A stretch of DNA of 6,363 nucleotides from Promethearchaeota archaeon (lineage in GTDB: Archaea > Asgardarchaeota > Lokiarchaeia > Sigynarchaeales > SOKP01): the NCBI GenBank assembly GCA_016839425.1, contig JAEOUI010000279.1, positions 1-6,363 on the forward strand, read 5' to 3'. The notes under the pieces are model-generated. The model was not told the DNA's origin. It searched no databases and saw only the letters and a program-made list of their open reading frames with translations. Both the position numbers and the translations under genes were made by a program. Below, in pieces: positions 541-6,363 of this stretch; position 1 is the first letter of the stretch; each line of letters begins with the position of its first letter.

Positions 541-1920
541 ATGGTTTATTTTGAAATAAAAAATGTGGGGTTTAATTGCGATAAGGACAAGGATGTGTGT
601 CCAGAATATCCCGATTCGTGCGAAAAATGCGTGCTTGATCGATTGAGATCACTAGGATTTAAGTTTGACTCTCATATTAAGATTATGGAAATGGATTCTG
701 AAGAAAAACGTCTTGAGATGTACCAAGAGCAAATTTGGCAAAAATTCTTAAATATCCTTAATATCAAGCATGTGGTAATAATGGACAAGAATTCGGGAGT
801 GCCAATTACAAATTATGCGGTATCTGAGGTAGGAATTGACGCCGGAATGCTTTCAGGATTCATTCAAGCGAATATCACATTTTCTGAAAGAACTGGCATA
901 TCAGAACAACAAGATAGCTTGATAGACTATAATTTTTATCACTTTCAATATAAGAATTTTAATATATTACTCAAAAATGGCGAATTTTCGCGAGTATGCT
1001 TGATACTTGACCACAAACCCTCAAAAACTTTAGAATCTATTACTCGAGAGTTTGTCATAGACCTCGAGAAGAAGTATGCTAGTGAGTTTAACTCGTTTCA
1101 GACCAGAAAAGTATTAAATTTTCCATTCTTGGAAGAATTCATTATAGAGGGTTTTAGCGTGCAATTTTTGTTCCCAATGATTTTAACCCACACGATTCCT
1201 CCCGATATCATGGAATCGATAAACGACAACAAAATTCAAAGCGCCATTTTCAAGCTTGCGAAAGAATTTTTATCGAAAAAGCATTTCTTTTTCATTAACA
1301 CTTTACTCAGCGAAATTAAAAATATTATCGATGTAGAATCAAAAATAATAATTTACGAGATATATCAACTATTAAAAATGAATGTAATGATTCCAACAAC
1401 GATCGAGACCGTGGAGTCAAGCGTAAAAGAATTTGAAGAAAATCGAGCTCGAAAAATCGCAAATAGTCATGTTATTTCTCATATCATATCCACGGAAAAT
1501 TCGATTACAGCCCTTGATGAATTGAAAAAAGCTGCTAAATCAATGGATCAAGACACTGCAAGAAAACAAATGGAGCAATTTATAAAAAAGGGTAAGACAG
1601 CAGAAAAAAGCAAGATCTACAAGGAGGCACAAAAAGAATACGAGAAGGCACTATATCTTGCAACTGGATTTAATTTTCACGACGATATTGGAAAAATATC
1701 TTTTATGATCTTGGAGCTTGACAAGGTTATAGGTAATATTGAACTTGAATACGCAATTAATGCAGGAGAAAGTGCTGAAAGAAAAAAGGAGTATATCGAT
1801 AGTATTAGGCATTATAAGAAAGCGATCGCAATTTTAGAAAAAGATATTGGATCTGGAAGTTCCGAATCTAAGATCAAAAAAATAGAAAAAAAAATTTCAA
1901 AGCTTCAAGATTTAATCTAA
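541..1920 (+). CDS. Longin/roadblock-like domain protein with N-terminal Cys cluster and C-terminal TPR-like repeats
   Basis: Complete 459-residue frame with a strong ribosome binding site. Residues 13-30 hold four cysteines (C13, C20, C27, C30, the last pair as CEKC), a plausible zinc or metal knuckle. After a lead helix (about 61-74), residues 75-185 follow a longin-like order: strand pair IKHVVIMDKNSGVPITNY, helix with MLSGFIQAN, three strands (FYHFQYKN, FNILLKNG, RVCLILD), then a long helix. The 'V-I-D--SG-PI' and 'SGF--A' patterns are typical of longin/roadblock-like proteins I associate with Asgard archaea. Residues 232-290 are helical and end in IYQLLKMNVMIP, resembling a winged helix. 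Residues 344-377 and 402-435 are two TPR-like repeats. Known of the folds: longin and roadblock domains bind small GTPases or trafficking partners; TPRs bind proteins. No signal peptide or membrane segment is visible, so it is probably a cytosolic adaptor. The actual partner is unknown. The same-strand giant coiled-coil gene follows after 155 bases. The longin versus roadblock assignment is unsettled; the TPRs could instead be an MIT-like helical bundle. Confidence 0.85.
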   Translation: MVYFEIKNVGFNCDKDKDVCPEYPDSCEKCVLDRLRSLGFKFDSHIKIMEMDSEEKRLEMYQEQIWQKFLNILNIKHVVIMDKNSGVPITNYAVSEVGIDAGMLSGFIQANITFSERTGISEQQDSLIDYNFYHFQYKNFNILLKNGEFSRVCLILDHKPSKTLESITREFVIDLEKKYASEFNSFQTRKVLNFPFLEEFIIEGFSVQFLFPMILTHTIPPDIMESINDNKIQSAIFKLAKEFLSKKHFFFINTLLSEIKNIIDVESKIIIYEIYQLLKMNVMIPTTIETVESSVKEFEENRARKIANSHVISHIISTENSITALDELKKAAKSMDQDTARKQMEQFIKKGKTAEKSKIYKEAQKEYEKALYLATGFNFHDDIGKISFMILELDKVIGNIELEYAINAGESAERKKEYIDSIRHYKKAIAILEKDIGSGSSESKIKKIEKKISKLQDLI

Positions 1921-2057: not shown

Positions 2058-2063
2058 GAGGGG
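2058..2063 (+). promoter_or_regulatory. Ribosome binding site supporting a TTG start at 2076
   Basis: GAGGGG stands 12 bases before TTG 2076, somewhat long but workable spacing. The frame is open only from 2046 (TAG at 2043-2045). The other in-frame starts are TTG 2064, which abuts the site, and ATG 2154, which has no purine-rich site upstream. TTG 2076 is therefore the preferred start. Confidence 0.5.
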
Positions 2064-2075
2064 TTGGACAATAGC

Positions 2076-5000
2076 TTGACGGTCGTTGAAAATAAAACTG
2101 CTTACCCATATATCACAACTTTTAAAAAAGAACCTTTTAAATCGTTTGCTTTAATGAAAAAAAAGGACATTGGGCATTTTTATTTCAGCGAATACGAGAG
2201 GGTTGTAAAAGTCTATAAATATTATAACGAAAACCTATTGAAGGACAAATCTCTAAATATTGAGAATGTATATTGGTTCCTTTTACTTCGAAAATATCTT
2301 CGGGAAGATAAACGAGATCATTTTGATGAGATTTACGACTTTATTATTAAATGCGAAGTTACTTTAGGCGATAAAATAGGTTTTAAGTTCTCTCCAACTT
2401 CAAATCAAAAACATCCTGATATATGGTCTACATATTTCGCCTTAGCGAGCTTAAAATTAATAGGTGCCCTTAAAGTTTATCTCAGCCCGAAAGGTAAGTT
2501 AAATATCAAGAAGGCTTTATTAGATTTCATAGCTTCACATAAAATTAATCATGGATATCTTCATTGCTTGGATAAAGATTGTCCTATTGATAAGAAAACC
2601 TCCGTTGTAAGGACATTATATTTTGTTCTTGACGCATTAATACTTTTAGGCGTAGATGTACGAGGAAATCGAGAAGAGTTTGGTGAAATTATTGGAGACT
2701 TAAAAAAGGACCCGACTATTGACTTTAAACTCCTTTGTTCAAAATTTATAGAAACGGATATTAATATTAGGGATAAAGAAGTTCAATATTTATATTCATA
2801 TCAAAAAGAAAATAAGGGATTTAGTTTTAAGAAAGCTGAAGGGCAGATTAATACTACTTTTTGGGTCGTATACGCCCTTAATAATTACTCGTGGATTTTA
2901 GATTATAATCCCATGGGTATCTATTCTTTTATAAATTCTAAGTTTCAAGACATTCTCATTGCCGAACTAAACCCAATAAAGTTAATGGAACTTTCAAAGT
3001 TAACGATCTTACTCTCAATAATTTGGGAGAAATTCATTCAAGAGATCGAACGCGTTTTATTCAAACAATTAGAACAGGACAAATATGTGGACTTAAATCA
3101 AATTAAAAACACATTTGGACTCGTTCACGGAATAGAAGAGGTCATTTCGTTTATTAATCTTAATTATACTTTTAACTTGAGGATTTTAGATAATCGCGTT
3201 GAGTTTAAAAATTACATCCGGAACTTAGGAAAAGGCTTACAAACGATTGCAGGGGAGTTTTATGATAGACTTACAAACAATAGCATTGTTTCGCTTTCAG
3301 ATATATCTAAGAGATACAAGTCAAGTTATTTTCCAGAGAATATAAAACTTAGAGAAGACGTTCTTCCCATGGTTAAAGATTTGGCAAGACGTAATTTCTT
3401 TAAAGGTACTATTCGTTCAAAAAGAAAACCTTTAAAAAAGAAATATTTGTTCTACTTGAATTTTTTCTTGGAGAAGATCATTGTATCCGACACGGAAATT
3501 AATTTGGAGCAATTATTAAGCGAAAAAGAAAAGCTCAAAGACCATAAAAATACCATCTATAATATGATCTTGAAATTAAAGACTGCCACGAATAAGACAA
3601 GAGAAGAAATAGAGAGTTATCTCCTCATTGACGAGATTGACATTGCCAAGGAAAGAATCAAATATTTAATCCATAACACGCTAATGGATGCTGAATTCTT
3701 GAACGAAAACATAGAACTTTCTTTTAGCGAAGATTTATATTATATCAACCTTCAAAAAGCGCTTGAACCAGAAATTAATGCTTGGAAAAAGCAATATTCC
3801 GTTTTAAAAAGCAAGTTAAGAGATTTAGAGCTGAATTTACAAGCACGAATCGAAGAAAAGGAAGAAATTAGGAGTATTACTAAGATACTTAACAGCTTAA
3901 AGGAAAAAATCGCTAATATAGAAATCGATATCCACAATAAAATTGAAAAGTTCAGGTCTTATTTCAGAGAGACCTTAGAAAAAGAATATACAGACGAGAT
4001 ATTTAATCTTCTCACGAGAGAGTTCGAAAAGATTTCGCAAAGAGTACAGAAATACGACAACATCATCTATCGGGTTTCCCAACAGATTCAAACCAGGGAA
4101 GGAAAGTTAAAGCGAAAACATAAAAAAATCATTGACAAGTGGATAAACATCAAGCAAGAATTTGACGAGGTCTTTGCATATTATACTGATGGATTCGAAT
4201 TTTTTCACAAAAGCATTATCGAAATCGAAGAAATTCGTAATACTATTCGCATTGAGTTTTCTGAGATAGGAAATAAAATAAATCAACAAATTTCAGAAAA
4301 CGAATACGAGTTAAAGATCATTTTAGACGCCATCAAAAAGGATACGGATGCAATACTTAATGAAAAGATGAATAAGATTAAGGAATTGCAAAAGTCGTTT
4401 AAAAAAGAAATAAAATCAAAACAAAAGCTTTACTTGCTCTATAGGTATTTACCAGAAAAGTTAGATATTTTAGAGGAAGATATTTTAGAATTAATGGCTC
4501 AACAAGTACAACTTCTCAAAAATAAAGCTTTAGAAGAAAGGAAAAGGGCAATAACAGAGGATTTCGATGTTTTCGTCAACCATGAAATGGCAAGCTTGAA
4601 AAATAAAATCGTTTCTTTTAATAATTATTTAAGCCAACTTAAAAATGTGAGAGTAAAGGATGTTACCAAGGGGACTGAGAAGTTACTAAAGCAACTGGAA
4701 GAATCTAACCATCAATATAAAACAAAACTAAGCGATTGCAATGCAGAAGTTAGCGATTTTCAAGAAAAGTCTAATGTTACTATAATCCAATGGGAGAACT
4801 TCAAGGATTATTTCATTAACGAAATTGAGAACTTAAAAAACGAAAAAATTAATGTCATCATAACTAATAAAATAAAAGCAGTCTCGCTGGAAAAAAAGAC
4901 TAATAATATCGATATTACAGAACTTAAAAAGGAACTTAATCTTAATTGTAAGGTTTTACTTACCAGAATACGGGAAATGATTGAGATCTCACAAATAAGC

Positions 5001-6363
5001 GCTAAACTCTACGAAGATAAGAAATGTTTGCTATTACATACGGATCATTTTTACAAAAACGAAGACCTCAAGAACCATATCGATAATAAGATATTAAAAC
5101 CCAATAGCGAAGCCATTGGTAAAATTTTGGCATTATACGATTCAAGTATAAAAAATATGACTTTAGGCGTTAACACATTGGAACTTAAAAATCGAATTCA
5201 AGATTTAAAAGATTTTGAAAAATTTTCGAAAGAACAATTTATGAAAAAAATTGAAGATTTGGAAATTGACAGGACTAGATCGGATTATAAGAGAACAAAG
5301 AAATATTTCAATGAGACATTAGAAAATCAGAGCAAGGCACTTAGAAACATAAAGGATTCTTTAATATTTTTTGCTGAAATCAAGGATTTCATTTTTAAAG
5401 AATTTAATAAATTAAACATCGATCTAAAGCAAAATTTTGAAAATATCATAGATGATAAAGAAAAGATTGATGAAGACTTTCAAGTCAAGGTAAAGCGTTT
5501 TGAATTAAAGCATAAAGAAGTAATGGACAAAATAGAGCTTGAATTGAAAGAGTCCTTAAGTACAAATTATGAAGTTGGAAAACTAAGTCCGGAAATCAGG
5601 GAATTCTATGTTTTAACTAAAAACGAATTTCAAAGAGAATACGATAACAAGATGGAAACTTTAAAGGAACAAGTTTTTAACATTAAAAACGATTCGTTTA
5701 GAGAGGACTTCCTCAATTATTTAAATGAAAATAAGATACAATTAAGTCAATTACTCGGTAATCTTGAACGGAGCGTTGAAGATGATGTTGAAGTTAAGTT
5801 CTACAAGAGAGCATACCTGAAGATTGATAAGAGAGTTAAACGCATTGAGAACGAAATTAAGGATAAAACTAAAGACCTAAAAAACTACCTTAAAAAAGTA
5901 ACAAAGAAATCAAAGGATTTCGAAACGAGAAACAAGTACTTCATTGATGATTTCGGCCAATTTCTCCAAAAATTCTCAGAAATTTTGGGAGAGAAAGTAA
6001 AACAGTTAGAAAGATTAATAATCAAGTCTTATATTGAAACAACTATAAATGCAGTAGCAAACGGATTTCTTACGACGAGTTTCTTAAACGAAGAACTAAA
6101 GATTAAAAAGAAAAACATTCAAGAAGCCATTATAATTCTCATTAGCAATGGAGAACTTGAAGGAAAATACGACATTCGATTGGGCATTTATTATGAGAAT
6201 CCAGAAATACTTAATAAAATTAACGAAGAGGAGCTCGAAGTAATTAAAAAAATGCCCTTTAAATTTTACATGTTTATTACGCATTTAAAAAGTTTCACGG
6301 GGCAATACGCCTCTATCATTGCGATGTTCGCTTCAGTCTTGACGATTACATACACTTTATTCG
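2076..6363 (+). CDS. Giant coiled-coil protein with N-terminal alpha/alpha-toroid domain, winged-helix-like modules and C-terminal membrane segment (3' end outside window)
   Basis: I translated the frame from TTG 2076 to the edge: 1429 codons and no stop. I do not recognise it as a named family. Domains seen: residues about 50-300 form an alpha/alpha toroid like prenyltransferase-beta/squalene-cyclase repeats, with units near 59-80, 102-132 (GFKFSP then STYFALASLKLIG), 160-195 and 247-275 (KGFSF then WVVYALNNY). Residues about 322-380 and 389-450 resemble two winged helices. Residues about 470-1310 are Lys/Glu/Ile/Leu-rich coiled coil with only four prolines (565, 793, 1009, 1172). Residues 1313-1374 form a third winged-helix/PCI-like module ending in ELEGKYDIRLGIYYE. 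From about 1411 an uncharged hydrophobic stretch begins (ASIIAMFASVLTITYTLF), probably a membrane segment, cut by the window. The toroid lacks the GGLxDKP...YHTCY zinc-site motif of protein prenyltransferases and the DxDD of cyclases, so it is probably a binding scaffold rather than an enzyme. There is no Walker A, so it is not an SMC/Rad50 ATPase. A role as a long membrane-anchored rod or tether is inferred. It could be cotranscribed with the longin/TPR gene upstream. Confidence 0.88.
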   Translation, partial: MTVVENKTAYPYITTFKKEPFKSFALMKKKDIGHFYFSEYERVVKVYKYYNENLLKDKSLNIENVYWFLLLRKYLREDKRDHFDEIYDFIIKCEVTLGDKIGFKFSPTSNQKHPDIWSTYFALASLKLIGALKVYLSPKGKLNIKKALLDFIASHKINHGYLHCLDKDCPIDKKTSVVRTLYFVLDALILLGVDVRGNREEFGEIIGDLKKDPTIDFKLLCSKFIETDINIRDKEVQYLYSYQKENKGFSFKKAEGQINTTFWVVYALNNYSWILDYNPMGIYSFINSKFQDILIAELNPIKLMELSKLTILLSIIWEKFIQEIERVLFKQLEQDKYVDLNQIKNTFGLVHGIEEVISFINLNYTFNLRILDNRVEFKNYIRNLGKGLQTIAGEFYDRLTNNSIVSLSDISKRYKSSYFPENIKLREDVLPMVKDLARRNFFKGTIRSKRKPLKKKYLFYLNFFLEKIIVSDTEINLEQLLSEKEKLKDHKNTIYNMILKLKTATNKTREEIESYLLIDEIDIAKERIKYLIHNTLMDAEFLNENIELSFSEDLYYINLQKALEPEINAWKKQYSVLKSKLRDLELNLQARIEEKEEIRSITKILNSLKEKIANIEIDIHNKIEKFRSYFRETLEKEYTDEIFNLLTREFEKISQRVQKYDNIIYRVSQQIQTREGKLKRKHKKIIDKWINIKQEFDEVFAYYTDGFEFFHKSIIEIEEIRNTIRIEFSEIGNKINQQISENEYELKIILDAIKKDTDAILNEKMNKIKELQKSFKKEIKSKQKLYLLYRYLPEKLDILEEDILELMAQQVQLLKNKALEERKRAITEDFDVFVNHEMASLKNKIVSFNNYLSQLKNVRVKDVTKGTEKLLKQLEESNHQYKTKLSDCNAEVSDFQEKSNVTIIQWENFKDYFINEIENLKNEKINVIITNKIKAVSLEKKTNNIDITELKKELNLNCKVLLTRIREMIEISQISAKLYEDKKCLLLHTDHFYKNEDLKNHIDNKILKPNSEAIGKILALYDSSIKNMTLGVNTLELKNRIQDLKDFEKFSKEQFMKKIEDLEIDRTRSDYKRTKKYFNETLENQSKALRNIKDSLIFFAEIKDFIFKEFNKLNIDLKQNFENIIDDKEKIDEDFQVKVKRFELKHKEVMDKIELELKESLSTNYEVGKLSPEIREFYVLTKNEFQREYDNKMETLKEQVFNIKNDSFREDFLNYLNENKIQLSQLLGNLERSVEDDVEVKFYKRAYLKIDKRVKRIENEIKDKTKDLKNYLKKVTKKSKDFETRNKYFIDDFGQFLQKFSEILGEKVKQLERLIIKSYIETTINAVANGFLTTSFLNEELKIKKKNIQEAIIILISNGELEGKYDIRLGIYYENPEILNKINEEELEVIKKMPFKFYMFITHLKSFTGQYASIIAMFASVLTITYTLF

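Follow-up and report, generated by a model that had tools for sequence, protein, structure and literature searches.

Protein prenyltransferase beta subunits hold their catalytic zinc through Asp, Cys and His ligands. The PCI winged helix is usually a protein-protein module, found in many scaffolds, and PCI modules are the assembly core of the proteasome lid, the COP9 signalosome and eIF3. Lokiarchaea are close archaeal relatives of eukaryotes, and the protein described here combines folds known in eukaryotes from Rab prenylation and from PCI scaffolds with a predicted membrane hairpin. Its gene lies on a 6,363-nucleotide stretch of a Promethearchaeota archaeon (assembly GCA_016839425.1, contig JAEOUI010000279.1, forward strand; hereafter, the window). 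On balance, we read its product as a scaffold or tether that is anchored in the membrane and belongs to the core proteins of Lokiarchaeia, made up of a toroid head, four winged helices, a segmented arm and a hairpin. The toroid likeness by itself is not new in archaea, because passages of PMC4915359 report archaeal proteins with a geranylgeranyltransferase beta-like fold and call homologues of both prenyltransferase subunits common.

Within the open-licence literature we found no description of the whole architecture, of its conservation in Lokiarchaeia, of the lost zinc site or of the longin-ended paralogue discussed below. A whole-chain search of PDB sequences returned no match, and NCBIfam had none for the window protein, its nearest relative (P0002) or the distant member L101, with weak rows alone for L098 and L058. 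Source records label the relatives as hypothetical or as membrane proteins without known function, or name no more than the toroid ('prenyltransferase/squalene oxidase repeat-containing protein'). The original prediction, drawn from the letters of the window alone, had called the protein apparently undescribed, and within this literature, NCBIfam and the source names that description stands.

Gene, domain order and conservation

The frame from 2064 on the plus strand reaches the right window edge without a stop, with 1433 codons from TTG 2064 or 1429 from TTG 2076, as originally predicted (at least 1429 codons). The window part of the protein spans 2076..6362 (+), residue numbers being counted from 2064, and the full-length family protein has approximately 1470 residues. 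TTG 2076 is the likely translation start: it is favoured because start codons align there in 46 of 60 relatives (38 TTG, 7 ATG, 1 GTG; the other rows hold 6 gaps and 8 other codons) and because GAGGGG, a candidate ribosome-binding site read in the sequence, lies at 2058..2063 (+).

An alpha/alpha toroid like that of protein prenyltransferase beta subunits occupies 2181..3032 (+, residues 40-323). The toroid originally predicted is borne out by Pfam PF00432 (Prenyltrans; residues 50-254, 6.1e-7, above the family cut-off), by the AlphaFold2 (AF2) model and by fold comparison, in which the beta subunits of FTase, GGTase and RabGGTase are nearest. As had also been foreseen, two winged helices follow in the AF2 model: a winged-helix-like module 1 at 3087..3218 (+, residues 342-385), seen in the predicted secondary structure, and winged helix 2 at 3231..3488 (+, residues 390-475). 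AF2 on the locus of P0002 (L001) places winged helix 3, which is PCI-like, within the rod (4905..5036, +, residues 948-991) and winged helix 4, of PCI type in relatives, beyond it (6066..6194, +, residues 1335-1377). The models therefore show four such modules in total rather than the three proposed, the extra one lying within the rod.

Pfam PCI (PF01399) matches 23 of 31 members at E<=0.1, and in all five members inspected (P0030, P0107, P0078, P0120 and L058) its match at the last winged helix clears the cut-off of the family. In the window protein's own sequence Pfam PCI gives nothing at E<=1, yet this region lines up with the relatives with no notable gaps. Among distant relatives, PCI at the place matching winged helix 2 (by eye) is above the cut-off in P0133 and below it in P0138. 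Winged helix 3 gave VIA rows to CSN2 and UFL1/DDRGK1, and Pfam PCI in L096 under the cut-off. Neither model gave a Foldseek row with E below 0.001, a result that does not exclude families missing from its lists.

The rod is helical over two parts, 3504..4904 (+, residues 481-947) and 5043..6044 (+, residues 994-1327). The first consists of separate helices that are bundled and spectrin-like in the model; the second, with winged helix 4, repeats the preceding bundle and winged helix 3, an internal duplication of the bundle-plus-winged-helix unit that is detected by hhalign (94.8%, 4.9e-8; reversed control 41.6%, 2.7e-4). Approximately 840 residues of coiled coil had been proposed. This region is indeed helical, charged and poor in proline and glycine, with a periodicity of 3.5-3.6 in parts, but it is not one coiled coil: winged helix 3 cuts it at about residues 948-991, and in the model its helices are separate, most being 30-70 residues long and two only 14 and 16, with short loops between them. 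A rod of up to about 125 nm was therefore not borne out; packed like spectrin, the arm would be about 35-40 nm long. The AF2 runs were of monomers, which leaves some room for a dimeric rod.

At its C-terminal side the window holds the first helix of a putative membrane hairpin (6315..6362, +, residues 1418-1436, cut by the window edge), which accounts for the hydrophobic end noticed originally. The hairpin is called from hydrophobicity: the family profile has two hydrophobic helices, and in P0002, which continues beyond this point, another hydrophobic helix follows and then a basic tail (KKKKE). A third hydrophobic stretch, L001 314-332, is taken as a head helix, since the model assigns its residues to a long helix that lies behind the toroid.

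A search with residues 1-470 yielded 190 homologous proteins, and most of the 120 listed are 1460-1490 aa long. P0002/L001, with a complete C-terminal end, is the closest among the matches listed (91% identical). A scan of genome contigs gave 63 loci, every one titled Lokiarchaeota or Lokiarchaeia. Across the phylum, 75 of 227 genomes match, 74 of them in a block of 78 genomes (G083-G157 and G001-G003). Block members without a match are G087, G090, G128 and G150, and G179 matches weakly outside it. A second search, using distant members, raised the count to 76 of 227 by adding one weak match outside the block (G187); both searches scored two candidates per genome. From the locus titles, and from Helarchaeota names among distant proteins, we infer that the block is one class; Hodarchaeota or Thorarchaeota occurs in a few source names. 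Distant members (L096-L102, 17-26% identical to the window protein, and L058, 24%) align from toroid to hairpin.

In 54 genomes a single match covers at least 1400 of 1471 model positions, and G101 alone of these has an internal stop. That two genes had been joined by a misread frame is ruled out by the 53 stop-free genomes, which include G002 and G089, where the contig with the match is about the whole assembly. In G122 only the last 63 positions are matched; gene loss was rejected there, as a run of 100 N adjoins the match and is read as an assembly gap.

Against L001, the ratio of nonsynonymous to synonymous substitution rates (dN/dS) comes to about 0.031 for the whole and to 0.049 over the toroid, 0.036 over the first part of the rod, 0.017 over winged helices 1-2 and likewise over winged helix 3, and 0.008 over winged helix 4 with the hairpin part. 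These values are rough, dS being near saturation, and none is computable for the second rod part. Selection is strongly purifying and tightest on the membrane-near end, the most constrained piece because its dN/dS is lowest. Together with the 190 head homologues and the 54 long matches, the overall ratio indicates that the protein is real beyond chance. It likely does something basic, because some 1470 residues are under strong purifying selection and are matched in 74 of the 78 block genomes.

The toroid head and its candidate metal-site residues

Residues of the head were compared over 61 rows: the window, 49 of the 63 loci (frames >1380 aa without masked letters; partial loci dropped), L058 and L095-L104, L034 and L104 having identical sequence. 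The profile match to RabGGTase beta is significant only over the whole chain; single stretches have E >0.1, and some pair different toroid repeats. In this alignment Q261-I262-N263 (2844..2852, +) falls on Asp238-Val-Cys240 of RabGGTase beta, of which we take Asp238 and Cys240 to be zinc ligands, and the zinc site is not kept. Along this low-scoring stretch, the catalytic Cys is present in 0 of 61 rows at position 263 and an Asp stands at the aligned ligand place in 15 of 61. The alignment did not place the ligand His; placed by eye, it occurs in no row at columns 309-311 and in one at column 312. Of 61 rows, 60 keep Trp267, which falls on a Trp of RabGGTase beta.

The head has a motif of its own, H167-C168-x4-C173-x2-D176 (2562..2591, +), a possible structural zinc site that reads HCx4Cx2C in most relatives. 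H167 is kept in 61 of 61 rows, C168 in 60 and C173 in 60 (one gap), and position 176 is C in 43 and D in 12. Cys97 (2352..2354, +), a possible zinc ligand, is kept in 54 of 61. No alpha subunit (PPTA) was found above the cut-off in three genomes, with one sub-threshold match in G001; the controls also gave 0 of 14, and these repeats are hard to tell from TPR.

Other toroids were seen in passing. In L095 (about 3250-3425, residues about 117-173), as in P0132, the toroid has an inserted zinc-ribbon-like stretch with CxxC pairs, which in P0132 matches Pfam DZR at 0.0023, under the cut-off. Stand-alone toroid proteins of 365 aa (L109:1048-2145 and L108:1246-2343) have, by eye, a signal-like segment at the N-terminus and a membrane segment at the C-terminus and are perhaps extracellular. 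In G085, a genome of the distant group, a short toroid-like match (C5, about 1041446-1041760, -; E 1.9e-7) lies within an open frame of 14,439 aa, a giant protein.

Longin-ended paralogues and neighbouring genes

In shorter paralogues of 1236-1318 aa a longin-like end of approximately 130 residues replaces the hairpin: L095 (G083), L124 (G001, the nearest relative's genome) and L126 (G100). In P0133 and P0138 the chain stops before the last winged helix. A longin-like domain of the same type as the end of L095 (43.9 bits) is encoded at about 751-1110 in the gene upstream of the large protein (541..1920, +; 459 aa, with a C-terminal TPR), 155 bases before TTG 2076. This longin-like/TPR gene is present in 4 of 64 loci, the window counted, and the paralogue's longin-like end is stronger evidence than the longin gene next door. 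The domain shows weak Pfam likeness to the INTU/CCZ1/HPS4 longin (2 of 21 members, best 0.0015) and to FUZ/MON1/HPS1 (2 of 21, best 0.038), and its matches number 10 in G002, 21 in G001, 26 in G089 and 39 in G083. The best row of a PDB search with the longin-like profiles was a designed fibre protein (0.0029), which we do not believe.

The longin-ended paralogue has a conserved place of its own, because in both L124 (2252-5962, -) and L126 (883-4635, +) it adjoins proline-synthesis genes (glutamate 5-kinase-like and ProA-like, by eye). Convergent to L095 is a gene for a Ras-family GTPase (7212-8219, -; 7e-48) with an extra N-terminal part, and a roadblock protein (L100:5088-5540, +; 1.1e-9) is encoded two genes upstream of the L100 family member. 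Just downstream of the large protein in the window's clade (L001, L039) is a small protein with weak likeness to the first longin of FUZ/MON1/HPS1 (L001:14442-14945, -; 0.038).

The flanks of 44 of 64 loci contain, on the opposite strand, a helicase cluster, typed as DEAD/Helicase_C by Pfam from one scanned member. Genes lying mostly upstream encode an FeS oxidoreductase (44 loci) and a GlcD-like oxidase (39), both identified by eye; a C13-like peptidase occurs there in 22 loci and a small membrane protein in 17. The peptidase, close to the large gene in many loci, is predicted to be membrane-bound or secreted and is legumain-like (Pfam 4e-10 for the one member scanned, L011:7506-8999, +). None of these neighbours has an evident functional link to the large protein. 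At its left edge the window cuts off an aminotransferase gene of which it contains the start (1-276, -); this portion matches NCBIfam alanine aminotransferase at 5e-28. Viral origin was rejected, as no relative was confirmed in a scan of viral contigs, and so was a known defence gene, no PADLOC family being found for three proteins.

A probable membrane-fixed scaffold or tether and its alternatives

From its anatomy, the protein is probably a tether or scaffold. The hairpin would hold it in the cell membrane with both ends cytosolic, as the basic tail suggests, and the membrane-near PCI module and hairpin would form an assembly core by analogy with the proteasome lid, the COP9 signalosome and eIF3. 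The arm would keep the toroid tens of nanometres away, and the toroid itself may be a non-catalytic receptor for a partner or an isoprenoid ligand. The longin-ended paralogue suggests that the same head and arm can, in addition, recruit small-GTPase regulators or be recruited by them. The membrane-near PCI modules suggest complex assembly at the membrane, and the exchange of the hairpin for a longin-like end suggests a tie to the regulation of small GTPases. The original layout of a head on a rod with C-terminal membrane attachment survives in the structure predictions and in relatives that align over their full length down to 17% identity, though without its unbroken rod. Of the two outcomes named beforehand as refuting it, neither came about, since the models contain toroid and winged helices and the frame is not a fusion of two genes. 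It had left out the likeness to prenyltransferase beta subunits with their zinc site lost, the PCI type, the extra module within the rod, the repeat of the bundle-plus-winged-helix unit and the longin-ended paralogue. Weighing against a membrane-fixed scaffold, the hairpin is missing from some shorter relatives. The longin-like neighbour, found in one clade, is weak evidence because domains of this type are numerous in these genomes.

The four winged helices could instead bind DNA, with arm and hairpin holding it, in a chromosome-to-membrane or nucleoid organiser that is somewhat kleisin/SMC-like, and the head does give weak Foldseek rows to VanR, PadR and MukBEF chains (E 0.06 and higher). 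We consider this unlikely: those rows are not significant, the Pfam matches of 31 members include no SMC/ABC ATPase head, the one ABC entry being a membrane-region row at chance level, and the winged helices are typed in relatives as PCI. It seems similarly improbable that the protein serves a ubiquitin-like or proteasome-lid-like pathway as its membrane scaffold, in the manner of UFL1/DDRGK1 at the endoplasmic reticulum (ER) or of COP9. Many scaffolds carry PCI winged helices, no Foldseek row falls below E 0.001, no ubiquitin-system family is above the cut-off among the neighbour proteins scanned, and UFL1 is not known to have a prenyltransferase-like toroid.

The nearness of the toroid fold to FTase, GGTase and RabGGTase beta and the retention of Trp267 would suit a membrane-bound isoprenoid enzyme, of prenyltransferase or cyclase-like type, for which the long C-terminal part is a mere membrane holder, and beside the common homologues of both subunits one report of archaeal protein isoprenylation is cited in PMC4915359, in the passages available. 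This we judge very unlikely, given that the aligned zinc Cys is missing in all 61 rows and the Asp in all but 15, that no PPTA match is above the cut-off in three of three genomes, that archaeal Rab-like proteins are described as lacking C-terminal cysteines (passages of PMC4915359) and that BLAST is reported to have detected no subunits of Rab geranylgeranyltransferase (Thor-Rab section of PMC10933270). Least credible is an unbroken golgin-like coiled-coil tether about 125 nm long: the long helical, charged stretch with its partial periodicity and the C-terminal membrane anchor would fit, but the monomer prediction has separate helices and a winged helix in the rod, and the model matches folded-back bundles.

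A more specific form of the membrane-anchored scaffold is tentative and rather doubtful. It would be a near-universal Lokiarchaeia tether in which a Rab-type beta-subunit relative serves as a non-catalytic isoprenoid or small-GTPase receptor, with PCI assembly at the membrane and a longin-ended paralogue. If true, this would be a pre-eukaryotic membrane-scaffold system, with the folds of later Rab prenylation and PCI-complex assembly in one chain. Knowing its partners would make it testable what organises the Lokiarchaeia cell membrane, and whether prenyltransferase-type toroids were binding modules before, or beside, being Rab-modifying enzymes.

Among described systems, multidomain Asgard longin/TPR/HTH-PCI proteins linked to ESCRT share PCI, longin and TPR modules in related settings, whereas neither 'prenyl' nor 'toroid' occurs in the main text of that source (PMC10936438), unlike the toroid-headed protein here. 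SMC/kleisin machines differ in the ABC-type ATPase head, which is not among the Pfam matches of the 31 members. Golgin-type tethers are alike in their C-terminal membrane anchor, but their long, largely uninterrupted coiled coil is not seen in the predicted monomer. Compared with spectrin/plakin rods, the arm has no Pfam spectrin match, is interrupted by a winged helix and scores below the guide value for helical bundles. UFL1/DDRGK1, the UFM1 ligase at the ER membrane, differ in that they are not known to have a toroid, and no sign of a UFM1 system was seen here. PCI scaffold subunits (COP9 CSN, proteasome lid, eIF3) similarly have helices followed by a winged helix, but here such modules share a single chain with a toroid head and a predicted membrane anchor, and the PCI copy of the window protein itself is below detection. 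The beta subunits of RabGGTase, GGTase-I and FTase share the alpha/alpha toroid of beta-subunit type; here, by contrast, the aligned zinc Cys is lost, the toroid has its own HCx4Cx2C motif, and it is fused to winged helices, a helical arm and a predicted membrane hairpin.

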